A program made the translations under genes and the position numbers. This document shows, piece after piece, positions 4,838-38,228 of a stretch of 64,000 nt of DNA; within the stretch, counting starts at the first letter, position 1; every line of letters starts with the position of its first letter. The stretch is from Acetobacter conturbans. Lineage in GTDB: Bacteria > Pseudomonadota > Alphaproteobacteria > Acetobacterales > Acetobacteraceae. Under the pieces are notes generated by a model. It was not told the origin of the DNA and did no database searches. It worked only from the letters and a program-made list of their open reading frames with translations. The DNA is taken from assembly GCF_011516755.1 (NCBI RefSeq), contig NZ_WOSY01000010.1, positions 62,001 through 126,000 on the forward strand. The letters run 5' to 3'.

Positions 4838-6235
4838 TCAATCGCCGGAGACGCGGGTCCTCGTCCGCATGGTCACGAACTCTTCGCCCGACGTCGGATG
4901 AATACCGATCGTGCGATCAAAGTCCGCCTTGTGCAGTCCGGCGGTGACGGCAATGGCCAGTCCCTGCATCAGTTCGGGCGCATCTTCACCAATCATGTGC
5001 ACGCCAATGACCTTCTGCGTGGCCTGATCCACCACAAGTTTCATCACGGTACGCCGTTCGCGTCCGCTCAGCGTGTGTCGCATCGGACGGAATTTCGAGA
5101 CATAGATATCCACCGTCCCCTGTTCCGCAGCTTCCGCTTCGGTCAGACCCACGCTGGCCAGCGGCGGCGTGAAGAACACGGCTTTCGGGGTCGTCTCGAA
5201 TGACCATGCACGCGCCCGGTCGGCGAACAGGCGATCTGCAAGGATATGTCCCTCCGCGATGGCGACCGGCGTGAGATTGAGGTGATTCGTCACGTCGCCA
5301 ATGGCGAACACGCCGGGTTCCGCCGTCTCGAAGTGCCGATCCACCTCGATACGGCCTTCTTCCGTGCGGCGCACGCGCGTGTTTTCCAGCCCAAGCCTGC
5401 CGCTTTTCGGGTGACGCCCCGTGGCCATGAGAACACAATCGACCGTCACTTCGGTGCCGTTATCCAGCGTGACGACCAGATCGCTTCCCTCACGACGGAT
5501 TCGCGTCGGGCTAGCCTTTTCATGCTGCGTCACGCCCCGCTGGCCGATGGCTTCATGCAGAGCGACTCGCAGATCCTCATCGAAGCCACGCAGCGGAAGC
5601 GGCTGCCGGTAGACCAGTTCGACACTCGCTCCGAGGCCCGCGAAGATTCCGGCGAACTCGACGCCGATATAGCCGCTGCCGATGACGCAGACGCGACGTG
5701 GCATCTCCGGCAACCCGAACACCTCATCCGACGTGATGGCCAGATCGGCGCCCACAATGTCGAGCTTCGTCGGCGTCGAACCTGTCGCGATGACGATATG
5801 TCGGGCCGTAATCCGTTCGGGTTCCGCGTTCGGGGCCAGTTCCGTCGGCGTGGTGACAACGGTGTGCGCGTCCTCGAAGCGGGCGAATCCCGTCAGAAGG
5901 CGGACGCCCGACTTTTCCAGCATCGAGACGTAAATGCCGTTGAGGCGAGAAATTTCCTTGTCCTTGGCCGCGATCAGCCGATCCCAGTGAAATGCGCCTG
6001 CCTGTGTGTCCCAGCCGAAGCCGTGACTGTCCTCGACGTAATCACCGTATTCGCTGGCCTGCACCATCAGCTTCTTCGGCACGCAACCAAGATTGACGCA
6101 GGTGCCACCCCAGTGACGCCCTTCGACCACAGCCACTTTCGCCCCGTGGCCAGCAGCGATTCGTGCGCAGCGAACACCGCCCGAACCTGCGCCGATGACC
6201 AGCAGGTCAACGTCGTAAGATGTGTCTTGAGGCAT
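4838..6235 (-). CDS. gor: Glutathione-disulfide reductase
   Basis: 465 residues. The FAD-binding GAGSGGVRCARIAA is at the N-terminus and the redox-active disulfide motif GGTCVNLGCVPKK near residue 44-56. A second Rossmann motif (GSGYIGVEFAG) binds NADPH, and the C-terminal GIHPTSGEEFVTM carries the catalytic His-Glu pair. The enzyme regenerates glutathione with NADPH in the cytoplasm. The closest family is the short plant/alphaproteobacterial type of glutathione reductase. A hairpin with a T-run lies just upstream of the start. Confidence 0.93.
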   Translation of the reverse strand: MPQDTSYDVDLLVIGAGSGGVRCARIAAGHGAKVAVVEGRHWGGTCVNLGCVPKKLMVQASEYGDYVEDSHGFGWDTQAGAFHWDRLIAAKDKEISRLNGIYVSMLEKSGVRLLTGFARFEDAHTVVTTPTELAPNAEPERITARHIVIATGSTPTKLDIVGADLAITSDEVFGLPEMPRRVCVIGSGYIGVEFAGIFAGLGASVELVYRQPLPLRGFDEDLRVALHEAIGQRGVTQHEKASPTRIRREGSDLVVTLDNGTEVTVDCVLMATGRHPKSGRLGLENTRVRRTEEGRIEVDRHFETAEPGVFAIGDVTNHLNLTPVAIAEGHILADRLFADRARAWSFETTPKAVFFTPPLASVGLTEAEAAEQGTVDIYVSKFRPMRHTLSGRERRTVMKLVVDQATQKVIGVHMIGEDAPELMQGLAIAVTAGLHKADFDRTIGIHPTSGEEFVTMRTRTRVSGD

Positions 6236-6278
6236 GCTGCGCTCCGCTTATTCGTGACTGTTGGCAGGGATCGGGACG

Positions 6279-6307
6279 AAAAACCCCGCCACACCCGTGT
6301 GTCGGGG
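6279..6307 (-). terminator. Hairpin with T-run in the gor leader
   Basis: On the minus strand, CCCCG-A-CACAC pairs with GTGTG-G-CGGGG (a single A opposite G mismatch, very short loop), followed by five Ts. It ends 44 bases before the gor ATG. It could end read-through from upstream or act as an attenuator if the gor promoter lies further upstream. Confidence 0.45.
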
Positions 6308-25916: not shown

Positions 25917-27224
25917 TCAGAGACCTGCGGCTGTTTCTTCCCCTTGGCGCAACATCCTGATCGGCGAACCGACAAGCGCAACCGACAGGATGCCCGCAAC
26001 GACCAGCGCTCCTGAGCACATATACCACGCCATATCGAAGCGCCCTGTCCAGGACACGATATATCCTGTGACAATCGGTGCGAACAATCCGAGAGAATTG
26101 CTGCATGTCAGGGTCACGCCCGTGACCGTGCCGATCTTCTGCCCGTCTTCCAGCATATCCGTCAGCAAAGCCGTGTTCGCCCCATTGGCGGCAATCAGGC
26201 AGCCCAGAGCGCCCGACATCACCAGCAAAATCGGCGTCATCGTGTGAAAAGAAGGAAGCAGTCCGATAGTCGATGCACCAGCAAGACAGGCACCGACAAT
26301 GAAACGTCGGCGCGAGGGTGAAGGATTGCTGCGAAAGACCAGGCTCTCCAGTATCTTTCCAATAATGATGGCACCAATGGCAGCCGCCAGATAACAGAGC
26401 GCCGTTCTCGTCCCCGTGCCCGTGATGTCGATATGCAGTTCATGGATGAGATAGAGCGGCATCCACGACATCATCAGGAAATTCAGGTAATTCTGCGTGC
26501 ACTGCACGACAAGAATTCCAACAAACGACGAAGAACGAAACAGATTCTTCACTTCCGCAAAAGAGATACTCTTTCTGGAAGAAAGCGTCTTTCCGACAGA
26601 CGGATTCCGGTAAACCAGCCACCAGACCAGCGACCAGGCGAAACCAATAATACCCAGAATGACGAATTCAATGCGCCAGTTGAAGAGTGTTATCAGCCAC
26701 GCCCCTGCTATCGTGCCACCGGCCAGACCGAGCTGCATGCCGGTCAGCAGAACAGTCATGACAGAACCACGCTCTTTCGGAAGCGCCCAGTTTCTGACAA
26801 CGGTTGCGCCAACGCCAAATGTGGGGGCCTCACCAACACCAAGCAGAACGCGGGTGAGAAGAAACTGGGAGATGTTCTGCACCATGCCACCGAGAAGCAT
26901 GGCAAAGGACCAGAGAGATACGGCAAGACTGCCGACCAGACGCGCACCCACTCTGTCCAGCAGCATGGTCGATGGCAGGTTCAGCAGAAAGTACGACCAC
27001 AGAAAGCTGGAGGATACCCAGCCCATCTGCACGGGCGTCAGGCTGAATTCCTTGCCCAGATCCGGCATGGCGATGGAAAGAGCTGCCCGGTCCCCATAGC
27101 TGATGACATACATGAGGAAGACCAGAAAGAAGAAGACATAGCGTGACGTCATCTTTCCCTGCTTCTGCATAGTGGTTTCCATATTGCCGGTCACTGGAAG
27201 TGACGTTGCCTGATCAGACTGCAT
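25917..27224 (-). CDS. MFS transporter, anion:cation symporter type
   Basis: 435 residues with twelve predicted membrane segments. The order of motifs (SYGDRAALSIAMPDLGKEF, then GWVSSSFLWSYFLLNLPSTM and LLDRVGARLVG) fits the ACS family that imports sugar acids and other organic anions. It is the last gene of the minus-strand group behind pxpBCA and the EamA transporter and ends 111 bases from the convergent small membrane protein gene. Substrate not assignable; an acid related to the pxp/acc enzymes is likely by context. Confidence 0.85.
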   Translation of the reverse strand: MQSDQATSLPVTGNMETTMQKQGKMTSRYVFFFLVFLMYVISYGDRAALSIAMPDLGKEFSLTPVQMGWVSSSFLWSYFLLNLPSTMLLDRVGARLVGSLAVSLWSFAMLLGGMVQNISQFLLTRVLLGVGEAPTFGVGATVVRNWALPKERGSVMTVLLTGMQLGLAGGTIAGAWLITLFNWRIEFVILGIIGFAWSLVWWLVYRNPSVGKTLSSRKSISFAEVKNLFRSSSFVGILVVQCTQNYLNFLMMSWMPLYLIHELHIDITGTGTRTALCYLAAAIGAIIIGKILESLVFRSNPSPSRRRFIVGACLAGASTIGLLPSFHTMTPILLVMSGALGCLIAANGANTALLTDMLEDGQKIGTVTGVTLTCSNSLGLFAPIVTGYIVSWTGRFDMAWYMCSGALVVAGILSVALVGSPIRMLRQGEETAAGL

Positions 27225-28372: not shown

Positions 28373-29140
28373 CTAGTCCGCCAGCAGATGCGCCGGTGTC
28401 AGCACGGCCCCTGTCGCGTCGATTTCGGCCCTGATGGCCTTCGCAATGTCCAGCGAACCGGGTGTGTCGCTATGCACCAGGATCGACTTCGCCTTGACCG
28501 GAAAACGGACGCCATCAATCGTGGTCACAGATCCGTTTTCCAGAAACTGACGGACACGGGCGCGCACAGCATCCAGATCATGGATGACTGCTCCCGGTTG
28601 CCCGCGCGGCACCAGCGCTCCGGACACGGTATAGGCCCGGTCGGCAAGAAAGAGCGTATGGACACGCAGACCGACTTTTTCCGCTGCCCGTTCGGTCGGC
28701 TGCCCCGTCATGGCGAACACTGTCAGTTCCTTGTCCAGAGCCGCGATAACCCGAACAAGACGGAGAGCGCGGGCTTCATCCGCATTGGCCATGGTTCCGA
28801 AAGCTGCATGATAGCTCACATGGGTGACGCGATGACCATGTCGGGCGGCAACCCCCTGCAATGCGCCGATCTGACAGGCCAGCATCGCCTCCATGTCAGA
28901 ATCGGAAACAGGCATCGCTCGCCTCCCGAAACCGATAAGGTCGGGCAAACCGGGATGAGCCCCGATGCCGATACCTTTTTCTTTCGCCAGCCGGACAGTG
29001 TGATCCATGATCGCATAATCACCGGCGTGAAAGCCGCAGGCGATGTTGGCGGAAGACACGATATCCATCAGGCTGTCGTCGTCGGCAACACGCCACTGCC
29101 CGAAGCCTTCACCCATATCGGAATTGAGGTCAATTTTCAT
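28373..29140 (-). CDS. pxpA: 5-oxoprolinase subunit A (LamB/YcsF family)
   Basis: 255 residues, the usual length. MKIDLNSDMGEGFGQW is the family start, with SANIACGFHAGD and GIGAHPGLPDLIGFGRR following. PxpA with PxpB and PxpC forms an ATP-dependent 5-oxoprolinase that opens 5-oxo-L-proline to L-glutamate. Its start overlaps the pxpC stop by four bases, so the order of transcription is pxpB, pxpC, pxpA. The nearby biotin carboxylase genes leave open a different carboxylase-coupled reaction. Confidence 0.92.
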   Translation of the reverse strand: MKIDLNSDMGEGFGQWRVADDDSLMDIVSSANIACGFHAGDYAIMDHTVRLAKEKGIGIGAHPGLPDLIGFGRRAMPVSDSDMEAMLACQIGALQGVAARHGHRVTHVSYHAAFGTMANADEARALRLVRVIAALDKELTVFAMTGQPTERAAEKVGLRVHTLFLADRAYTVSGALVPRGQPGAVIHDLDAVRARVRQFLENGSVTTIDGVRFPVKAKSILVHSDTPGSLDIAKAIRAEIDATGAVLTPAHLLAD

Positions 29141-30138
29141 TTCTTTCCTCCACCCTGCCGACGATTTATGGAATGGCTATAACGGGCAACCATCTGACGG
29201 AGGCTTTCGAGATACGCCTCGACAGGCTGCATTGCCGCAACACCCTGCTCATGACTGCATTTCTGAAAACGGATACGCGAACCGATTCTCGCCTGTGCCA
29301 ACCGCCACAGATCACTCTCGATCACGGTCGCAATGCGCGGATAGCCACCTGCCGTATTGGCATCCGCCATCTGCACGATGGGCTCACCAGCAGGTGGAAC
29401 CTGAATAATGCCCGGCACAATACCATATGAACGCAATTCAACTGGTTGATGAAGTTCCAGCTTCTCACCGGTCAGCCTGTAGCCGACGCGATTGCTCTGA
29501 GGCGTGATACGCCACTCGCAACTCCAGAACCGCTCCCGCGCCGTATCCGTAAAAAGCATGTAATCCGTTGCAGGTATTGCACGCAGGCTGATGACTCCTG
29601 CTTTCTCTTCCACTGCGTCGAAGCGAAGCGCAACGGACGGCGGCAGTGCTGCATACCCGGTCGTCAGCATCTCGCCGAGGCGAGCCCGCAGGATATCGCC
29701 TTCTTCCAGAAACCTGCCAGCCAGACCACCAAAGCCTCCACGCAACTGCGTGCTGCGTGACCCCAGAATGACCGGCACATCGACGCCACCAGAAAAACAG
29801 ATATAACCCCGCGCGCCCTGCCGGGGCTGCCCGATACGGAGAACCTGCCCAGCCTCAGCAGTGGCAACCGACCAAGGAAGAAGCATGCGCCCATCCAGTT
29901 CAATGGCGGCATCAATTCCGGTCACAGCAAAGCTGAGCGGCTCGTCGAATTTCAGCGCGAACGGATAAGTCTGCAGTTCGATCCCGGCGGCATCAGCGTC
30001 ATTATCCAGCAGGATATTGCCAACCTGAAGCGCCAGAGAATCCATGACGCCGGAAGACCCGACACCAAGATTACGATATCCCGGTCGCCCCAGATCCTGA
30101 ACTGTGTTCAACGGGGAGGTTTCAAGGATCGTGATCAC
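29137..30138 (-). CDS. pxpC: 5-oxoprolinase subunit C (KipA / carboxyltransferase-like)
   Basis: 333 residues. TVQDLGRPGYRNLGVGSSGVMD is the conserved start of the CT_A_B (AHS2) domain, and FSGGVDVPVILGSRSTQLRGGFGG follows mid-protein. The fold is shared with the carboxyltransferase part of urea carboxylase. It overlaps pxpB and pxpA by four bases at each end, so the three subunits are co-translated. Confidence 0.92.
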   Translation of the reverse strand: MITILETSPLNTVQDLGRPGYRNLGVGSSGVMDSLALQVGNILLDNDADAAGIELQTYPFALKFDEPLSFAVTGIDAAIELDGRMLLPWSVATAEAGQVLRIGQPRQGARGYICFSGGVDVPVILGSRSTQLRGGFGGLAGRFLEEGDILRARLGEMLTTGYAALPPSVALRFDAVEEKAGVISLRAIPATDYMLFTDTARERFWSCEWRITPQSNRVGYRLTGEKLELHQPVELRSYGIVPGIIQVPPAGEPIVQMADANTAGGYPRIATVIESDLWRLAQARIGSRIRFQKCSHEQGVAAMQPVEAYLESLRQMVARYSHSINRRQGGGKK

Positions 30139-30869
30139 AGTTCGATACTTTCCGGATGGAAGCGGATGCGGTCCCCTATGGCGAAAAGAGCGGGAGGTTC
30201 GCGGGCAGGATCGAACAGCGAAATTTCCGTGAAACCAATCGAATTCCAGCCATTGGGGCCGGTCAGCGCTGAAATGCCCGCTTGCATCCCGCCGATGGTA
30301 ACCGTTCCTGCGAGCATATTCAGGGAAGGAACCGATTTGCGCGGGGTTGCGATACGCGGGTCCAGACCATGCAGATAACCAAAACCCGGAGCGCTGCCGA
30401 TCGCGCAGACCGTGTAATCATTTGCATGGTGGATCGCGATGACCTCATCCGGCGTCAGTCCGGCATGCTCGGCCACACGTCCGAGATCCTCTCCCAGCGC
30501 ACCACCGTAACGCACGCCGATTTCAAACAGGCGTCCTTCGATATGACGTTCCGGGAGGGTTTCCCAGGCCTTAAGCAGCCAGTTGGTAATGCGCTCAGGG
30601 TTTTCCGGAGGGGCAGAAAAAACCAGCATCAGATTTGTCACGCCCGGAATAAGCTCCTGAACGTCATTACGGCTGCCAGCCTCTTCGATCAGCGCCCAGA
30701 TCCTGCGCTGCTGCGCCATCGTGAACGCACCGGGCGCTTCAAAGAGCATGGCCCGCGTGCCGATCATGCTGATCGTCGGCGCATCTTCCGCAGAATGGAG
30801 AACCCGACCGCCTGCGAGACCAGTATTGCTTTCCGGATGATGTGTCACGTCGCCATTCAAAATACACAA
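30135..30869 (-). CDS. pxpB: 5-oxoprolinase subunit B (KipI / carboxyltransferase-like)
   Basis: Up to 244 residues. The CT_C_D domain shows VRYGGALGEDLGRVAEHAG, YTVCAIGSAPGFGYLHGLDP and TIGGMQAGISALTGPNGWN. The start is uncertain: the longest frame begins with TTG at 30869, a GTG lies at 30848 and the first ATG at 30767, and none has a convincing ribosome site. The homologous core begins near residue 35 of the longest frame. It is first in the pxp operon and divergent from the SDR-acc operon. Confidence 0.88.
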   Translation of the reverse strand: MCILNGDVTHHPESNTGLAGGRVLHSAEDAPTISMIGTRAMLFEAPGAFTMAQQRRIWALIEEAGSRNDVQELIPGVTNLMLVFSAPPENPERITNWLLKAWETLPERHIEGRLFEIGVRYGGALGEDLGRVAEHAGLTPDEVIAIHHANDYTVCAIGSAPGFGYLHGLDPRIATPRKSVPSLNMLAGTVTIGGMQAGISALTGPNGWNSIGFTEISLFDPAREPPALFAIGDRIRFHPESIEL

Positions 30870-31190
30870 TCCAGCACTGTTCTTGCGACAGGAACACCAG
30901 GGCCGCCAGTTTGGACCGGGTTCGTAATGAGTCGCATCATTTAGCGGCTGGTCAGCAGATTAGGATTGTTTCCGAAATGATTTCCAGACCCATTCCCGAT
31001 GTGAGGCCATCGGATAATCTTATGGCTCATCATATGAATGTGCACGGTATAGTATTATCTTATGACGCGAGAACGAACTGCTCTTGGCACTGAGATCGTT
31101 ACGATACTAGCATCATTTCAACACTCTCCGCGGATAATCCTTATATTGCGGGCGCAGTGGTATTTTTGTTGCAGTATCGAGGTTATCAGC
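30870..31190. promoter_or_regulatory. Divergent control region between pxpB and the SDR-acc operon
   Basis: This 321-base gap is clearly more AT-rich than the flanking genes. It holds a Nac-like site at 31049-31065 and a partial copy of the same motif 40 bases away at 31013-31025 (GATAATCTTATGG). It must carry the promoters for both operons. No gene is seen. Confidence 0.6.
31049..31065 (-). promoter_or_regulatory. Putative Nac-type operator 1
   Basis: On the minus strand the site reads TCATAAGATAATACTAT, matching TCATAA-N8-TAT. It includes the ATA-N9-TAT core known for the LysR-type regulator Nac and the T-N11-A pattern of the family. A Nac-like gene lies at 37290-38228. Confidence 0.5.
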
Positions 31191-31946
31191 ATGAGCAGTC
31201 AGCCGTATCGTAACGCTCTCGTTACCGGCGCATCCTCCGGAATAGGTGCGGCGATTGTCAGACGTCTCCGGGAAGCCGGACTGGACGTGCATGCCGTGGC
31301 GCGCGACGAGAAGCGTCTGGCGCAGCTGGCTGAAGAAACCGGCTGTATCCCTCACGCGGTCAGTGTCTCCGACCAGAAAGGCATCGAAGCCCTTATCAAC
31401 GACATCGAGGTGGATGTTCTTGTCAATAACGCCGGTCAGTCGCGGACGGGCAACATCACCAAGACGACGCCGGACGATATCGACGCTCTGGTCGACGTCA
31501 ATCTGCGTGCCGTTCTCCAGCTGACGCGCCTTGTCGTGCCGGGCATGATGCAGCGTGATCGCGGGCATATCGTGAATATCAGTTCCATCGCGGGTCACTA
31601 TGCCTTTGCTGGTGGCAACACGGTCTATCACGCCACCAAGGCAGGTGTGCATTCGCTCTCGCAGCAGTTGCGCTGCGATCTGTTCGGCCACCATGTCCGC
31701 GTCACCGAGATTTCGCCCGCGCGTGTCGAGACGGAAGTCTTCGGCCGTCTGATCGGCGACATGGCGGAAGCTAAAAAGCGCTTCTTTGACGAATACGACT
31801 CCCTCCTGCCGGAAGATATCGCGAATTCCGTCGCTTTCGCCGTGCTGGCGCCCTCACGCATGAATGTCAGCTTCATGGAAGTGTTGCCGACCATGCAGGT
31901 CGTGGGCGGCCTCAACTTCGCGAAGAAAACAGCGGATCGGACCTGA
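31191..31946 (+). CDS. Short-chain dehydrogenase, YdfG-like
   Basis: 251 residues from the ATG at 31191 (GAGGT site). The cofactor motif is ALVTGASSGIGAAIVRRL, the structural motif VDVLVNNAG, and the catalytic pair sits in YHATK with the Ser in NISSIAGHYAF. The best likeness is to YdfG-type NADP-dependent 3-hydroxy acid or serine dehydrogenases. It is the first gene of the plus-strand operon with accB-like and accC-like genes; the accB-like start lies 5 bases after its stop. The actual substrate is unknown, probably a hydroxy acid linked to the carboxylase. Confidence 0.88.
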   Translation: MSSQPYRNALVTGASSGIGAAIVRRLREAGLDVHAVARDEKRLAQLAEETGCIPHAVSVSDQKGIEALINDIEVDVLVNNAGQSRTGNITKTTPDDIDALVDVNLRAVLQLTRLVVPGMMQRDRGHIVNISSIAGHYAFAGGNTVYHATKAGVHSLSQQLRCDLFGHHVRVTEISPARVETEVFGRLIGDMAEAKKRFFDEYDSLLPEDIANSVAFAVLAPSRMNVSFMEVLPTMQVVGGLNFAKKTADRT

Positions 31947-31951
31947 AGTCA

Positions 31952-32389
31952 GTGGATATCACGCAGATCAGACGACTGACGGATCTGCTTTCTCGTACCC
32001 CGATCGAGGAACTGGAGATCGAGGAAGGAGGGCAGAAGATCAGGCTGACCCGCCGTGCAGGAAACAGCACGGCAGTCCCTTCGTCTCCTTCCTCCACTCC
32101 ACCTATCCCTAGTGGGCCGACGGATGCTCCGCCCCCCGCAGCCTCACCAGTAGCGGAACGGATCATTTCCTCGCCTGCATACGGGGTTTTTCATCTTTCG
32201 CCGTCTCCCGGCACCCCGCCGTATGTACAGGTCGGAGACACTGTCGAGCCCGGACAACAGATAGGACTGGTTGAAGCCATGAAAGTCTTCAATGCCGTCA
32301 AGGCAACCGAGGCTGGCCGGATCGAGAATATCCTCGTGACGGATGGCGAAGAAGTTGAGGCAGGCTCGCCCCTGTTCCGCCTGTCATGA
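31952..32389 (+). CDS. accB: Biotin carboxyl carrier protein (AccB-like)
   Basis: 145 residues from a GTG start. The N-terminal helix (ITQIRRLTDLLSRTPIEELEI) matches AccB, a Pro/Ser/Ala linker follows, and the biotinyl domain has LVEAMKVFNAVKATEAG with the modified lysine in EAMKVFN. It carries the carboxybiotin group between a carboxylase and a transferase. This is probably a second, pathway-specific copy rather than the housekeeping acetyl-CoA carboxylase subunit, because of its neighbours. It overlaps accC by four bases. Confidence 0.9.
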   Translation: MDITQIRRLTDLLSRTPIEELEIEEGGQKIRLTRRAGNSTAVPSSPSSTPPIPSGPTDAPPPAASPVAERIISSPAYGVFHLSPSPGTPPYVQVGDTVEPGQQIGLVEAMKVFNAVKATEAGRIENILVTDGEEVEAGSPLFRLS

Positions 32390-33753
32390 GCACCGAACGA
32401 CGCTTTGGCAGGGTGCTGATCGCCAACCGTGGCGAGATTGCTTTGCGTATCCAGCGGGCCTGTCGCCAGCTTGGCCTTGAAACCGTGGCTGTTTATTCCG
32501 AGGCCGATGCGGACAGTCGCCATGTCCATGAGGCTGACATAGCGCTGTGCATCGGCGCACCGGCCGCATCACGCAGCTATCTCGACCCTGAAGGTCTGCT
32601 GCTGGCCGCCCGGATGACTGGTGCCACAGCTATTCATCCGGGCTACGGCTTTCTCTCCGAAAATGCTGATTTTGCCGATGCTGTCGAGGCTGCCGGGCTC
32701 ACCTTCGTCGGCCCCACCGGCGACTCCATCCGGATGATGGGCGACAAGATCACGGCCAAACGCACTATGCAGGCAGCCGGTGTCCCTTGCGTGCCGGGTT
32801 CGGACGGATCGTTACCCGCCGCGACCGACGAGATTCTGGCGCTGGCCGAAACAGTCGGTTTCCCCGTCATCGTCAAGGCGTCTGGTGGCGGTGGTGGTCG
32901 TGGGATGCGTGTGGTGCATCATGCTACTGATCTTGCGGAAGCGGTCGCGCTGACAGCAAAGGAAGCACAGCAGGCATTCGGAAATCCCACGCTATATCTC
33001 GAACGCTTCATGCAGAAACCTCGGCATATCGAGATTCAGGTTCTGTGCGATACGCACGGCAATGCATTGTGGCTCGGTGCGCGTGATTGCTCATTGCAAC
33101 GACGCCACCAGAAGATTCTGGAAGAAGCGCCTGCGCCGGGCATCGATCCGGCCACCATCGCCGAGATCGGCGAACGCTGCGCGGAAGCCTGTCGCAGGAT
33201 CGGTTATCGCGGCGCCGGGACGTTCGAGTTTCTGTATGAAGACGGGGTATTCGCCTTCATTGAGATGAATACCCGTGTGCAGGTCGAACACCCCGTGACG
33301 GAACAGATCACGGATATAGATATCGTCGCTGAGCAGCTCCGCATCGCCCAGGGTGAACCCCTGAGAGTGAGGCAGGAAGATATCGCTTTCCGTGGCCATG
33401 CCATCGAATGCCGCCTGAACGCGGAAGATGCTTTCACGTTTCTTCCCTCTCCGGGAACAGTCACGCGGTGGGATCTTCCGGGTGGTCCCGGCATCCGGAT
33501 CGATACGCATGTTGTCGCGGGCTATACGATTCAACCTTACTATGATTCGCTGATCGGCAAGATCATCAGCTACGGCGCAACACGCGAAGAAGCAATCGCC
33601 CGTCTGCGGGTGGCACTGGCGGAGATGAACGTCGAAGGTGTGTCCACCAATATCCGCCTGCATGAGGATCTTCTGGCAGACCCCCATATTCAGGAAGGGG
33701 GCATGGACATTCATTTCCTTGAGAGATGGCTTGAGGAAAGGACCGCATCATGA
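32386..33753 (+). CDS. accC: Biotin carboxylase (AccC-like)
   Basis: 455 residues, the length of free-standing biotin carboxylases. VLIANRGEIALRIQRAC opens the protein, the ATP-grasp glycine loop is KASGGGGGRGMRVV, and FIEMNTRVQVEHPVTE holds the catalytic and metal residues. It carboxylates biotin with ATP and bicarbonate. Both ends overlap the neighbouring carrier genes by four bases (ATGA), so the three are co-translated. No acyl-CoA carboxyltransferase gene (accA, accD or pccB type) is in the operon. Confidence 0.93.
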   Translation: MSTERRFGRVLIANRGEIALRIQRACRQLGLETVAVYSEADADSRHVHEADIALCIGAPAASRSYLDPEGLLLAARMTGATAIHPGYGFLSENADFADAVEAAGLTFVGPTGDSIRMMGDKITAKRTMQAAGVPCVPGSDGSLPAATDEILALAETVGFPVIVKASGGGGGRGMRVVHHATDLAEAVALTAKEAQQAFGNPTLYLERFMQKPRHIEIQVLCDTHGNALWLGARDCSLQRRHQKILEEAPAPGIDPATIAEIGERCAEACRRIGYRGAGTFEFLYEDGVFAFIEMNTRVQVEHPVTEQITDIDIVAEQLRIAQGEPLRVRQEDIAFRGHAIECRLNAEDAFTFLPSPGTVTRWDLPGGPGIRIDTHVVAGYTIQPYYDSLIGKIISYGATREEAIARLRVALAEMNVEGVSTNIRLHEDLLADPHIQEGGMDIHFLERWLEERTAS

Positions 33754-34220
33754 CCGGCACACCATCACTGCTTCCGTCATTCGATTCAGTCTCCCATCCT
33801 GACGATATTGGCAGACTCGCCGACCTTCTCGTGGAGGCCGGTCTGGAAACCCTGGAACTGTCGAATCAGGACGGCTCCAGACTGTTTATAAGGGTTTCAC
33901 AGCCGCAATCCGTACAGGATGAGCGGCCCTCTTCCAGCCTGCACACGGGGACGCCGACCCACGTTCATGACACGACCGTTTCAGTCAAAACACCATATTT
34001 CGGCCTTCTGAGCTATACGCATCCCTTGCGTGAGGAGCCTTTTGCACCTGTAGGCTCCACGGTTCAGCGGAGCGATGTCGTGGCTCTTTTGACCCTTGAG
34101 ACGCTCCAGATTCCCGTTCTGGCAGGCGCTGACGGAGAAGTCATGGAGGTGACTGCTCAGGCCGGAGCACTGGTCGGTTTTGGTACCGAGATCATGAAAA
34201 TCCGCCCGATTTCCATTTAA
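33750..34220 (+). CDS. Biotin-carrier-like protein lacking the biotinylation lysine
   Basis: 156 residues with the same layout as the accB product: an N-terminal helix (DDIGRLADLLVEAGLETLEL), a variable linker, and a biotinyl/lipoyl-like beta domain from about residue 75. Where the true carrier has EAMKVFN this protein has TLETLQIP, and no lysine occurs anywhere between VVALL and GADGEV. It therefore cannot be biotinylated at the normal site. It may be a structural or regulatory partner of the carboxylase, or a decaying duplicate. It is the last gene of the operon and is followed by a terminator. Confidence 0.8.
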   Translation: MTGTPSLLPSFDSVSHPDDIGRLADLLVEAGLETLELSNQDGSRLFIRVSQPQSVQDERPSSSLHTGTPTHVHDTTVSVKTPYFGLLSYTHPLREEPFAPVGSTVQRSDVVALLTLETLQIPVLAGADGEVMEVTAQAGALVGFGTEIMKIRPISI

Positions 34221-34381: not shown

Positions 34382-35584
34382 TTATTTCAGCGACAACACA
34401 AACTCTTCGATACGGCGGCATCCTTCGCGCAGCGTCTCGATACTGGTTGCATAGGAAATACGGAAGAACGGGCTCATCCCATAGGCTGCGCCCTGCACCG
34501 TCGCGACCTGCTTTTCTTCCAGAAGTGCCATGACGAAGTCCGCATCGCTCTGGATATGACGGCCTTCAGGTGTGGTTTTCCCGATGCAATCGCTGATCTC
34601 GGGATAGACATAGAATGCCCCCTGCGGCGTATGGCATTCCACCCCCGGGATGGCATTCAGCAAGCTGACCACGAGATCCCGACGTCCCTGATATTCAGTC
34701 GCGCGTTCGCGGAGAAAATCCTGCGGTCCTTCCAGCGCGGCCACGGCGGCAGCCTGCGCGATGGTGTTAATGCCGCTGGTGGACTGGCCCTGCATGTTGT
34801 TCATCACGGCAATCAGGTCACGCGGCCCACCACAGAAACCAACACGCCAACCGGTCATGGCATAAGCCTTGGACACACCGTTGACTGTCAGGACACGATC
34901 TTTGAGGCGTGGTTCCACTTCCGCCAGTGTACAGAACTGGAAATCATCATAGACCAGATGCTCGTAGATATCATCGGTCATGATCCAGACGTGCTCATGC
35001 TTGAGCAGGACTTCGGCGATTGCCTCCATATCCTTGCGTGGACAGCATGCTCCCGTCGGATTGTTCGGAAAATTCAGCACCAGCCATTTCGTCTTCGGCG
35101 TGATGGCGGCATCCAGGGCCGCTGCGGACAATCGGAAATTATTCTCTGCAGGACACGGAACCTGCACAATGTCCGCCCCCCCAAGTCGGGCGATATCGGC
35201 GTAGCTGATCCAGTAAGGCGTCGGCAGAACAACCTCGTCACCGGGATTACAGGTCGCCATCATCGCATTGTAGATGATCTGCTTGGCACCGTTGGCCACC
35301 AGAATTTCATCCAGCGCGTAATCGAGATTGTTATCCCGCAGAAACTTGGCCTGAATGGCTTTCTTCAGCGCCGGTTTTCCCGCTTGTGGGGGATATTTCG
35401 TATCGCCACTGCGGGCAGCTTCGACAGCGGCCTCCACCGCATGAGACGGCGTCGGGAAATCCGGCTCGCCCGATGACAGGCTGATGATTTTCAACCCCTC
35501 CGCCCTGAGGACAGACGCCTTGTCCGTCATGGCAGCAGAAGCAGAGATTCCAATCCCGTTCAGTCGATCTGCAAAGCCCCGCAT
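34382..35584 (-). CDS. aspC: Class I aspartate aminotransferase
   Basis: 400 residues from the ATG at 35584 (GGAGA site). SLSSGEPDFPTPSHAVEA, LVLNFPNNPTGA and the PLP lysine in NGVSKAYAMTGWRVGF define subgroup I-gamma (thermophilic/rhizobial type aspartate aminotransferases). It interconverts aspartate and oxaloacetate with glutamate and 2-oxoglutarate. It is divergent from the aspartase gene, sharing a control region with a Nac-like site. A broader range (for example aromatic or prephenate substrates) is known in this subgroup. Confidence 0.9.
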   Translation of the reverse strand: MRGFADRLNGIGISASAAMTDKASVLRAEGLKIISLSSGEPDFPTPSHAVEAAVEAARSGDTKYPPQAGKPALKKAIQAKFLRDNNLDYALDEILVANGAKQIIYNAMMATCNPGDEVVLPTPYWISYADIARLGGADIVQVPCPAENNFRLSAAALDAAITPKTKWLVLNFPNNPTGACCPRKDMEAIAEVLLKHEHVWIMTDDIYEHLVYDDFQFCTLAEVEPRLKDRVLTVNGVSKAYAMTGWRVGFCGGPRDLIAVMNNMQGQSTSGINTIAQAAAVAALEGPQDFLRERATEYQGRRDLVVSLLNAIPGVECHTPQGAFYVYPEISDCIGKTTPEGRHIQSDADFVMALLEEKQVATVQGAAYGMSPFFRISYATSIETLREGCRRIEEFVLSLK

Positions 35585-35685
35585 CAGCGATCTCTCCAAA
35601 TTTTTTCAAGAAATGTACGATTACACAGTTCCTACACTCTAAATCGTTACGGAAAAGAATAGATAGGAATGAAAATGATCTGACA

Positions 35686-35702: not shown

Positions 35703-35800
35703 GGGGTCAGGCTGGATGTTCGCGGATAGCCTGCCTCAATTACAGCAACTTGCCGCCCGAAATCAGATCACCTGCTGTATGTTGCAGAAAGCGTTTCGGC

Positions 35801-37279
35801 ATGTCTTCCTTCCCGGCTTCCAAGATGACCACTGTAGCGCATGATGCAGAACATGCAGCCTTGCCTGCCCCCGGGAAGCTGGCCGAATATCGCACGGAAC
35901 GCGACCTTCTGGGTGCAGTCGAAATTCCGGCTGACACGCTGTGGGGGGTCCATACCTTCCGGGCCCTCCAGAATTTCCCGATCAGCGGCACCCCCATCGG
36001 CTCATTCGGCGCGCTGGTAAACGCTCTGGTCACCGTAAAACGCGCTGCGGCCCGCGCCAACCACGCGCTCGGTTATCTGGATACAAAACGGGCACAGGCC
36101 ATTGAAGACGCCTGTAGCGCGATTCTGTCTGACAGACGCTATCACAGCCATTTTGTCGTGGATGCGATGCAGGGCGGCGCGGGCACTTCGTCCAACATGA
36201 ACACGAACGAAGTCATTGCGAATGTGGCACTGAAAATTCTGGGTGAGGCCCCGGGCACATATGCGGTGCTTCATCCCAATGATCATGTGAATATGGCCCA
36301 GTCCACCAACGACGTTTATCCGACGGCGCTGCGACTGGGTCTGATGCAGGCCGTTAAGCCTTTGCTTGAGGCCCTGAAAGCCCTTGCTGAGGCATTTGCG
36401 GAAAGGGCGGATATCTTCGGACAGATCCTGAAGGTTGGACGCACACAGCTCCGCGACGCTGTCCCCATGACTCTCGGGCAGGAATTCCGCGCTTTTCAGC
36501 ATACGATAGAGAATGAAATCAGCAGCCTGGACAACAGCCTGTCGATGTTCCTGCAAGTTAACCTCGGTGGAACCGCCATCGGCACCGGCCTGAATACGGA
36601 TACACGTTATCGCGACGCCGTCATTGCGGAACTGCGGGTCCTGACAGGCCAGAAGATTGAGTCGGTCCCTGACCTGATCGAAGCGACATCCGACGTTGGA
36701 GCATTCGTGTCCTTCTCGGGTCATCTCAAGAGGCTGGCGCTAAAACTATCCAAGATTTCCAGTGATCTGCGGCTGCTTTCCAGTGGTCCGCGTGCCGGTC
36801 TGGGAGAGATCACGCTGCCTGCCGTGCAGGCTGGCTCTTCCATCATGCCCGGCAAGGTCAATCCGGTCATTCCGGAAGCCGTCAATCAGGTGGCATACCT
36901 CGTCGCCGGTTACGATACGACAGTCACGCTGTGCGCGGATGGAGGGCAACTCCAGTTGAATCCGTTCGAACCGATGATTGGGTACTGCCTTTATTCATCA
37001 CTGACAATTCTGCACTCAGCTGTGAATGTCCTGGCATCCCGATGTGTATCGGGCATTTCAGCAAACATCGTTCAGTGTCAGTATCTGTCTGAGCGCAGCA
37101 TTGGGCTGGTTACGGCTCTCGTGCCGGTTCTCGGATACGACACGTGCTCGGCCATTGCCCGACGCGCTCTTACGGAAAACAGGACCGTAAAAGAACTCGT
37201 GCACGCAGAAGGCCTGTTACCTGACGATCAGCTCGAAGCACTCCTGCGTCCGGAAGCGCTCACGCGCCCCAACCTGTAG
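35801..37279 (+). CDS. aspA: Aspartate ammonia-lyase
   Basis: 492 residues from the ATG at 35801; starts at 35750 and 35825 are also possible. ERDLLGAVEIPADTLWGVHT, GGAGTSSNMNTNEVIANVA, the HPNDHVNMAQSTND segment and the superfamily signature GSSIMPGKVNPVIPE are present. The pattern fits aspartase better than fumarase C, notably RTQLRDAVPMTLGQEFRAF and SSGPRAGLGEI. It releases ammonia from aspartate to give fumarate. Paired with the divergent aminotransferase it links aspartate nitrogen to the citric acid cycle. Confidence 0.93.
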   Translation: MSSFPASKMTTVAHDAEHAALPAPGKLAEYRTERDLLGAVEIPADTLWGVHTFRALQNFPISGTPIGSFGALVNALVTVKRAAARANHALGYLDTKRAQAIEDACSAILSDRRYHSHFVVDAMQGGAGTSSNMNTNEVIANVALKILGEAPGTYAVLHPNDHVNMAQSTNDVYPTALRLGLMQAVKPLLEALKALAEAFAERADIFGQILKVGRTQLRDAVPMTLGQEFRAFQHTIENEISSLDNSLSMFLQVNLGGTAIGTGLNTDTRYRDAVIAELRVLTGQKIESVPDLIEATSDVGAFVSFSGHLKRLALKLSKISSDLRLLSSGPRAGLGEITLPAVQAGSSIMPGKVNPVIPEAVNQVAYLVAGYDTTVTLCADGGQLQLNPFEPMIGYCLYSSLTILHSAVNVLASRCVSGISANIVQCQYLSERSIGLVTALVPVLGYDTCSAIARRALTENRTVKELVHAEGLLPDDQLEALLRPEALTRPNL

Positions 37280-37289
37280 AAGCTGTTAC

Positions 37290-38228
37290 TCACAAAGCCG
37301 AATGTGTGCCCGGCCAGTTACGGGAAGCCGCCATCGATTTGGCCACTTCGATCAGGAGTTCACGCACGGCAAGAGAGGCTTCCGTTTCCGGGATCATCTC
37401 CGGCATGCAGAGCGAGACATCTTCCTGAATGGTCGGACTCTGCAAAGGATAGATCTTCGATTTTCCCGGCACGACAATCCGGCTCGCGACTGACCAGGGC
37501 AGGATCGTACTGCCAAGCCCGTCAGCAATGGCGTACTGCAGCGTGATCAGCGCCTCTATCTCCGCGACGATGGTCGGCTGAAGTTGCTTGCGCAGAAAAG
37601 CCATGTCGATGCTTTTCCGAACAAAATTGTGCCGGGGCGGCACCAGCAGCGGGATATCGACAATATCCTGAAGCTGCACAGCCCCGCCTTCCTCGCTGGA
37701 AAGCTCAAGACTCTCGGGAGCCAGAAGAAAGAATTCCTCTTTCATGAGGGGCATGAACATGACCCCCTTGATCGGCCCGGCACCATGAATGACCGCCATA
37801 TCCAGCCGTCCGGTCATGATCAGCTCGCTGTAGATGTCGTCGAAACTTTCCGTCAGATGCAGTGTGATACCCGGCAGCTTTTCGCGAACGAGATGAAGGA
37901 GTTCCACGGACAGCGTTGAGCCTGCGCTGTAAGGAGACAGGCCGACCGACACCTTCCCCACCAGCGGCCCACTTCCCTGGCTGATCTCCACCATGGCCCG
38001 GTCCAGCTGCTTGATCAGCGTTTGCGCATGACGATAAAGATCAGAACCGGCGGCCGTAGGCGTCACGCCACTTTTACTGCGTATAACGAGCTTTTTCTTG
38101 AAAGCACTTTCAAGAGTTGCCAGTTGCTGGCTCAATGCAGGCTGTGCAATATTGAGCAGATCCGCCGCACGGGAAATGGACCCGAGGTCGATAATCTTTA
38201 CGAATGCCTGAAGGCGCCTGATGTCCAT
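37290..38228 (-). CDS. LysR-type regulator, Nac-like
   Basis: 312 residues with a GGAGG site six bases before the ATG. The N-terminal helix-turn-helix reads MDIRRLQAFVKIIDLGSISR and LNIAQPALSQQLATLE, close to Nac (nitrogen assimilation control protein), including the RSKSGVTPTAAG turn. The C-terminal part is a substrate-binding-like effector domain. It ends 10 bases from the convergent aspA and is divergent from the TonB receptor gene. Control of the flanking island through TCATAA-N8-TAT sites is inferred. Nac in enterics is itself made under nitrogen limitation; whether that holds here is unknown. Confidence 0.88.
   Translation of the reverse strand: MDIRRLQAFVKIIDLGSISRAADLLNIAQPALSQQLATLESAFKKKLVIRSKSGVTPTAAGSDLYRHAQTLIKQLDRAMVEISQGSGPLVGKVSVGLSPYSAGSTLSVELLHLVREKLPGITLHLTESFDDIYSELIMTGRLDMAVIHGAGPIKGVMFMPLMKEEFFLLAPESLELSSEEGGAVQLQDIVDIPLLVPPRHNFVRKSIDMAFLRKQLQPTIVAEIEALITLQYAIADGLGSTILPWSVASRIVVPGKSKIYPLQSPTIQEDVSLCMPEMIPETEASLAVRELLIEVAKSMAASRNWPGTHSAL

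Follow-up and report, generated by a model that had tools for sequence, protein, structure and literature searches.

A conserved biotin carboxylase–PxpABC gene cluster of Acetobacter conturbans as a candidate multi-subunit lactam-opening enzyme

We analysed a 64,000-nucleotide stretch of Acetobacter conturbans DNA (assembly GCF_011516755.1, contig NZ_WOSY01000010.1, positions 62,001 to 126,000 of the forward strand), here called the window, to which all coordinates refer. In the map of its open reading frames (ORFs), a plus-strand operon at 31191-34220, encoding a short-chain dehydrogenase (SDR), the biotin carboxyl carrier protein (BCCP) AccB, the biotin carboxylase (BC) AccC and a second BCCP-like protein, AccB', diverges from the minus-strand operon pxpB-pxpC-pxpA at 30869-28373. 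We favour, with moderate confidence, the reading that this locus encodes one multi-subunit biotin-dependent lactam-opening enzyme. More tentatively, and at slightly less than even confidence, it may represent a kind of lactam-opening carboxylase which uses KipI/KipA proteins as its carboxyltransferase (CT), has arisen independently several times in bacteria and here includes a non-biotinylated subunit resembling the plant BADC proteins. The genes of the cluster and its surroundings are as follows.

25917-27224, minus strand: major facilitator superfamily (MFS) transporter, possibly for substrate uptake (Pfam MFS_1)
28373-29140, minus strand: pxpA, LamB/YcsF hydrolase (Pfam LamB_YcsF, 292.6 bits)
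29137-30138, minus strand: pxpC, KipA-type CT half (Pfam CT_A_B)
30135-30869, minus strand: pxpB, KipI-type CT half (Pfam CT_C_D)
30870-31190, no strand: intergenic region of about 320 bases between the divergent operons, from the ORF boundaries
31191-31946, plus strand: YdfG-like SDR (Pfam adh_short)
31952-32389, plus strand: accB, BCCP (Biotin_lipoyl/BCCP) with the biotinylation motif EAMK
32386-33753, plus strand: accC, BC with three BC domains
33750-34220, plus strand: accB', BCCP-like, without the biotin lysine motif (Pfam Biotin_lipoyl, 26.3 bits)
34382-35599, minus strand: class I/II aminotransferase, a conserved partner (Pfam Aminotran_1_2, 279.5 bits)
37290-38228, minus strand: NAC-like LysR protein, a possible regulator (NF008410, 299.6, under the cut-off of 309)

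ORFs together with Pfam and NCBIfam models confirmed the gene content and the divergent operon pair that the original prediction had described from the sequence alone. Within the operons, the pairs accB/accC, accC/accB', pxpB/pxpC and pxpC/pxpA each overlap by 4 bases. The SDR start lies in frame within a longer ORF beginning at 31062, and pxpB may in fact start downstream of the TTG at 30869, to judge from the starts of its orthologues.

When species genomes were scanned with AccC and the best 80 of 568 relatives kept, these included 26 relatives from acetic acid bacteria at an AccC identity of at least 75%, which together with the window make up 27 orthologous loci. The complete order pxpA, pxpC and pxpB on the minus strand followed by SDR, accB, accC and accB' on the plus strand is kept in 26 of these 27 loci, so the arrangement is not due to chance; at the remaining locus, L035, the contig ends before pxpA. 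Of the 26 relatives tabulated, 25 have the MFS transporter gene on the pxpA side, L035 again being cut by the contig end. KipI had no match in G026, a genome of the same family, and the arrangement is thus not universal. The core genes are co-directional in Amaricoccus (L040, L042), Rhodovarius (L074) and a further proteobacterium (L056). Moreover, accB, accC, accB', pxpB, pxpC and pxpA occur within a few kb of each other on plasmids of Rhizobium, Bradyrhizobium, Mesorhizobium and Paraburkholderia, and three of the rhizobial records (accC being absent from one) add an aminotransferase, a NAC-like regulator, an SDR and an amino-acid ABC transporter. In L037, pxpB was found by tblastn in two pieces (5741-6301), reflecting a frameshift or an assembly error.

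Linkage of accC to KipI genes also recurs across genomes. We sampled 142 genomes of the window's class, of which 35 carry KipI (40 places fetched), and 249 genomes of its phylum, of which 84 carry KipI (76 places fetched). Removal of three fused proteins left 37 unfused loci in the class sample, which omits one G127 fragment (C116); the fused frames of the phylum, a weak match in G370 and unfused loci in G028, G066 and G070 (already in the class sample) stand outside the 76, and the search loci L103-L131 were unused. accC lies within the stretch at 10 of the 37 unfused KipI loci of the class and at 18 of the 76 of the phylum, counts which may miss cases where a stretch ends at a contig end. 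By our own arithmetic, the chance expectation is about 1%, based on three biotin carboxylase genes, one of them the accC of the locus, in a genome of 3.9 Mb. Both kinds of KipI locus, linked and unlinked, occur in seven genomes, and in six of these the unlinked locus includes pxpA; therefore, the linked copy is probably not redundant with a stand-alone PxpABC.

Locus types were assigned by hand from gene order, replacing partly wrong automatic labels: type II is pxpA-accB-accC-pxpB-pxpC, type B is pxpA-pxpB-pxpC-accC-accB and type III is the type of the window. The PxpC tree has 140 rows and leaves out 16 loci (15 near-copies from acetic acid bacteria and L041), while the AccC tree has 81 rows and leaves out 37 loci; both are quick trees with support from the SH-like approximate likelihood ratio test (SH-aLRT) only. 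In both trees, types II, B and III form separate clades. Type III is a single clade of 25 rows in the PxpC tree (SH-aLRT 97) and of 23 rows in the AccC tree (98); L181, although labelled III in the PxpC tree, falls outside this clade, and L157_14241 is mislabelled III in the AccC tree. Stand-alone loci fall between the linked clades in the PxpC tree, which also includes L181, L154 and a Lactiplantibacillus plasmid as further linked cases. The type III AccC branches among housekeeping AccC proteins, beside named gammaproteobacterial AccC (support 82). Small type III subgroups recur in both trees, while the placement of L151 and the deeper order differ, and PxpC and AccC distances are correlated (r 0.67-0.90, 19 and 12 loci; 0 of 2000 permutations as high). 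On the simplest reading of the trees, a biotin carboxylase would have joined PxpBC at least three times; a single ancient link followed by losses and by replacement of AccC is an alternative. The co-occurrence of accB and accC with pxpABC on which the original prediction depended was therefore found across genomes as recurrent linkage, separate clades and congruent partner trees.

The type II operons include L156, L158-L160, L165, L167, L168, L170, L245, L246 and L249. In the type B loci L187, L194, L200, L202, L211, L213, L214, L219-L221 and L227, accC-accB follows pxpC and the CT position discussed below is Arg.

The most unusual component of the type III locus is AccB'. AccB carries the motif EAMK in all 40 loci that have accB, whereas the biotin lysine motif is absent from AccB' in all 41 loci, including L181 and also L217, whose stretch contains no accB. 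The original prediction overlooked that accB' is without the biotin-acceptor lysine motif; on the same 41 loci, a function as a working second carrier was rejected. In place of the motif, AccB' shows a weakly conserved pattern and, after it, a GxLxxxG that is nearly constant. Nevertheless, its profile aligns to AccB along 133 columns that take in both the N-terminal and the biotinyl domain. The AlphaFold (AF2) model (mean predicted local distance difference test score 81.7, predicted template modelling score 0.53) combines an N-terminal helix and hairpin with a biotinyl domain, and its top Protein Data Bank (PDB) matches include Arabidopsis BCCP1 and E. coli BCCP. On the BCCP equivalog model TIGR00531 (cut-off 115.2 bits), accB' scores 25.2 and accB itself stays under the cut-off with 104.9. 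In six pairs, the ratio of nonsynonymous to synonymous substitution rates (dN/dS) was 0.11-0.42 for AccB', compared with 0.19-0.32 for accB and 0.03-0.10 for AccC. AccB' is under purifying selection despite the loss of the motif, and the idea of a decaying duplicate was rejected on these values.

A profile search for AccB' in the 249 genomes gave G000, G189 and G239 as prominent among the matches listed; the score of the G351 protein falls among those of ordinary BCCPs, and this protein was assigned by context. Among the matches listed, all four genes adjoin pxp genes. In 6 of the 17 loci laid out, accB' lies between pxpC and pxpA. A second motif-less BCCP-like gene is found at L181 (3397-3819), near a linked pxp locus that falls outside the clade of type III; it could be related to accB' or have arisen in parallel. 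The window accB' also matches 137 plasmid records, 97 of them from Rhizobium and several annotated as acetyl-CoA carboxylase; the weak plasmid matches may be ordinary BCCPs.

The plant BADC proteins are BCCP-like and motif-less, and are described as assembly glue of the heteromeric acetyl-CoA carboxylase, with inhibition also proposed (PMC11926652). Like them, AccB' is homologous to BCCP, lacks the biotinylation motif and accompanies a real BCCP and BC; unlike them, it is bacterial and shares its operon with KipI/KipA carboxyltransferase genes. We mean a resemblance in type and make no claim of descent. By this analogy, we propose AccB' as an assembly or docking subunit.

A BC, a carrier with biotinylation motif and the KipI/KipA CT folds are all present at the locus. 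We infer that in A. conturbans these proteins form a physical complex with carboxylation chemistry, in which AccC would carboxylate biotin on AccB using ATP and bicarbonate. AccB' would bind the AccC-AccB module together, dock it onto PxpB-PxpC, or both, in the way proposed for BADC in the plant acetyl-CoA carboxylase. PxpB-PxpC would act as the carboxyltransferase and pass the carboxyl group to a lactam, PxpA, the proposed opener of the activated ring, would hydrolyse it, and the aminotransferase and the SDR would process the released amino acid. Because the linkage between accC and PxpBC recurs, it suggests carboxyl transfer by PxpBC instead of, or besides, phosphorylation.

The neighbouring genes give hints as to the substrate. 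An aminotransferase gene lies within 6.5 kb of pxpC in 27 of 27 loci of acetic acid bacteria and, among the remaining type III loci, in 11 of 13, and an SDR gene in 27 of 27 and 9 of 13, respectively. Neither was seen near pxpC in any of 109 loci of other types, with homologues called by hidden Markov models built from type III seeds with score limits, which distant genes in other types may escape. The NAC-like regulator is within the same distance in 8 of the 13 type III loci outside the acetic acid bacteria and in none of the 27 within them, where it lies further away. The SDR scores highest on the NCBIfam model for YdfG, under its cut-off. The established route from 5-oxoproline to glutamate requires neither an aminotransferase nor an SDR, and since both are linked to the locus, a substituted, perhaps hydroxylated, 5-oxoproline-like lactam would be likelier than 5-oxoproline itself. 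This assignment is a guess, possible but doubtful.

Transporters vary by locus and comprise MFS, amino-acid ABC, branched-chain ABC and TRAP types. TRAP transporter genes adjoin the type III cluster in L151 (2193-5249), and PMC13274462 refers to a Bordetella TRAP system that binds 5-oxoproline. In L098, genes for a proline racemase-like protein, an Ldh-type oxidoreductase and an epoxide hydrolase lie within the pxp cluster; an RraA-like aldolase gene adjoins the cluster in L098 and L212 and is, together with the L098 insert, a further substrate hint. As a constant partner this aldolase was rejected, since it occurs by the rhizobial loci L095-L098 and L212 and had no match in the A. conturbans genome. 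An aspartase/fumarase-family lyase gene (35750-37279) adjoins the cluster in the window; among acetic acid bacteria its presence varies, as does the orientation of nac.

Several observations weigh against a joint biotin-dependent enzyme and are best considered along with the rival explanations they favour. In one of these, which we regard as unlikely, PxpABC is an ordinary ATP-dependent 5-oxoprolinase, AccBC is a spare copy of acetyl-CoA carboxylase subunits, and their linkage reflects co-regulation of nitrogen and fatty acid metabolism. AccC indeed passes the cut-off of the acetyl-CoA carboxylase model TIGR00514 (653.7 versus 626.5), PxpB that of the PxpB equivalog TIGR00370 (171.6 versus 145.55) and PxpA those of the subfamily models NF003814 (318 versus 226) and NF003816 (223.3 versus 213), while in the NCBIfam scan PxpA did not reach the cut-offs of three PxpA equivalog models and PxpC stayed below that of its equivalog NF045499 (290 versus 500 bits). 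Among solved structures, E. coli YbgJK come closest to PxpBC, with 37% identity between PxpC and YbgK. As the genome has housekeeping AccA and AccD-like proteins, the AccBC of the locus could serve them. However, in a family search of the genome, the Carboxyl_trans matches fell on contigs C4, C18 and C5 and the ACCA match on C4, the acyl-CoA carboxyltransferase matches being AccA on C4 and two further frames of 329 residues (C18) and 410 residues (C5), and none was found on the locus contig C10. The plus operon is therefore without an acyl-CoA carboxyltransferase of its own, as had been predicted. Furthermore, a second accB-accC pair lies on contig C8, and its AccC groups with housekeeping AccC. 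The separate recruitments and the congruent clades also argue against a spare copy, as does the presence of an aminotransferase and an SDR, for which 5-oxoproline would have no need.

A six-gene pxpBCA-accBC operon is described in Staphylococcus aureus, and its accBC are interpreted as fatty acid synthesis genes (PMC11315280), in line with the same rival. The locus resembles this operon and types II and B in joining BC and BCCP genes to PxpBC, and differs from types II and B in that the type III PxpC and AccC form their own clades (the trees contain no S. aureus row); no SDR or aminotransferase was found near types II and B, where we also noticed no accB'. Corynebacterium glutamicum needs pxpTABC for growth on 5-oxoproline, and this cluster suffices for it, with no accBC named in the part of PMC13274462 available; like the operons without accC described below, this speaks against a strict need for a dedicated AccBC. 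The locus shares with PxpABC (E. coli YbgJKL, C. glutamicum pxpTABC) the KipI, KipA and LamB/YcsF subunits and the Arg at the CT position, but differs by its dedicated BC and BCCP, the Lys-less BCCP-like subunit, the aminotransferase, the SDR and a PxpC under the equivalog cut-off. In addition, the correlation of PxpC and AccC distances could in part be explained by common species history, and only one (G128) of the seven genomes with both linked and unlinked loci is of type III.

The CT residue presents a further difficulty. In the urea carboxylase CT, Lys1605 of KlUA probably serves as the general base (PMC5770610), and we set the equivalent position from that source and by alignment to 5i8i. 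It is Arg in all 40 type III rows (the window and 39 relatives) and in L181, Arg in 80 of 83 stand-alone loci (exceptions L155, L162 and L248), Arg in 11 of 11 type B loci and Lys in 13 of 13 type II loci. Like urea carboxylase and urea amidolyase (KlUC, TIGR02712), the locus has BC, KipA- and KipI-fold CT and BCCP parts, whereas its chains are separate, its hydrolase is of the LamB/YcsF kind and Arg replaces Lys1605. The single-chain cut-off of TIGR02712 (1303.85) was not reached, with partial matches of 482, 165 and 30 bits. Since PxpB has Arg for the catalytic Lys, the likeness is only architectural: by its sequence, the locus would be a split urea carboxylase in architecture with a CT residue of the 5-oxoprolinase kind. 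The close likeness originally suggested did not hold up, given this Arg and the second carrier without biotin lysine. A fully split urea or guanidine carboxylase, suggested by the matching domain parts, is very improbable: besides the Arg and a LamB/YcsF protein where allophanate hydrolase would be expected, the A. conturbans genome already encodes a fused protein of the urea carboxylase type (about 1188 residues), and the linkage of SDR and aminotransferase would be left unexplained. The type II operons, which keep the CT lysine, may be truer split urea-carboxylase-like enzymes.

The Arg, shared with stand-alone PxpB, also fits an explanation in which PxpBCA phosphorylates the lactam with ATP, and AccBC and AccB' form a bound, non-catalytic regulatory module with AccB' as decoy or sensor. 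We give this little credence, although phosphorylation of 5-oxoproline by PxpBC is the mechanism assumed in PMC13274462. Operons with accB' but no accC agree with it: the stretches of L217 and of L096, an Agrobacterium vitis plasmid that was the one replicon searched in this case, lack accC while keeping pxpBCA and accB'. The L217 genome, G351, encodes a single separate AccC of 459 residues at another place, along with two fused carboxylases. Either this AccC substitutes for the missing one or the enzyme can do without a dedicated AccC. On the type II contig L166, accB is likewise present and accC absent. At 6370-7288 of L096, accB and accB' are present with accC absent between them, unlike in the Rhizobium locus L095. 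Against a regulatory module, EAMK is kept in 40 of 40 AccB proteins and the AccC dN/dS values in the six pairs are as for enzymes in use.

PDB entry 9YX5 lists AHS1/AHS2 (KipI/KipA) chains beside two beta chains and an alpha3 BC-BCCP chain, these last three being probably AccD4, AccD5 and AccA3, in part by the chain identifiers of a sister entry; neighbouring entries are titled as Mycobacterium smegmatis carboxylases. This mycobacterial long-chain acyl-CoA carboxylase entry resembles the locus in pairing KipI/KipA-type chains with a BC-BCCP alpha subunit and differs in having acyl-CoA CT beta chains. Going by its chain names, it is independent physical evidence that such chains may pair. 9YX5 was absent among the PxpA structure matches and among the 50 Foldseek matches listed for the PxpC model. 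In the titles and abstract openings found by literature searches, which covered few subscription journals and not the first PxpABC paper, no AccBC-PxpABC joint enzyme was proposed. Overall, the joint enzyme of the original prediction gains from the recurrent linkage, the agreeing trees and the 9YX5 chains, and loses from the AccBC-less operons and the CT Arg.

If the favoured reading of a joint lactam-opening enzyme is true, many genes now annotated as extra acetyl-CoA carboxylase copies encode enzymes of another class, and avidin and bicarbonate offer a direct test of whether PxpBC works by phosphorylation or by carboxyl transfer. Moreover, a conserved carrier without biotin site would show that non-biotinylated BCCPs are used in biotin enzymes beyond plants. 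A block of genes usually labelled as fatty-acid and amino-acid-recycling enzymes may thus be a single biotin-using ring-opening enzyme.

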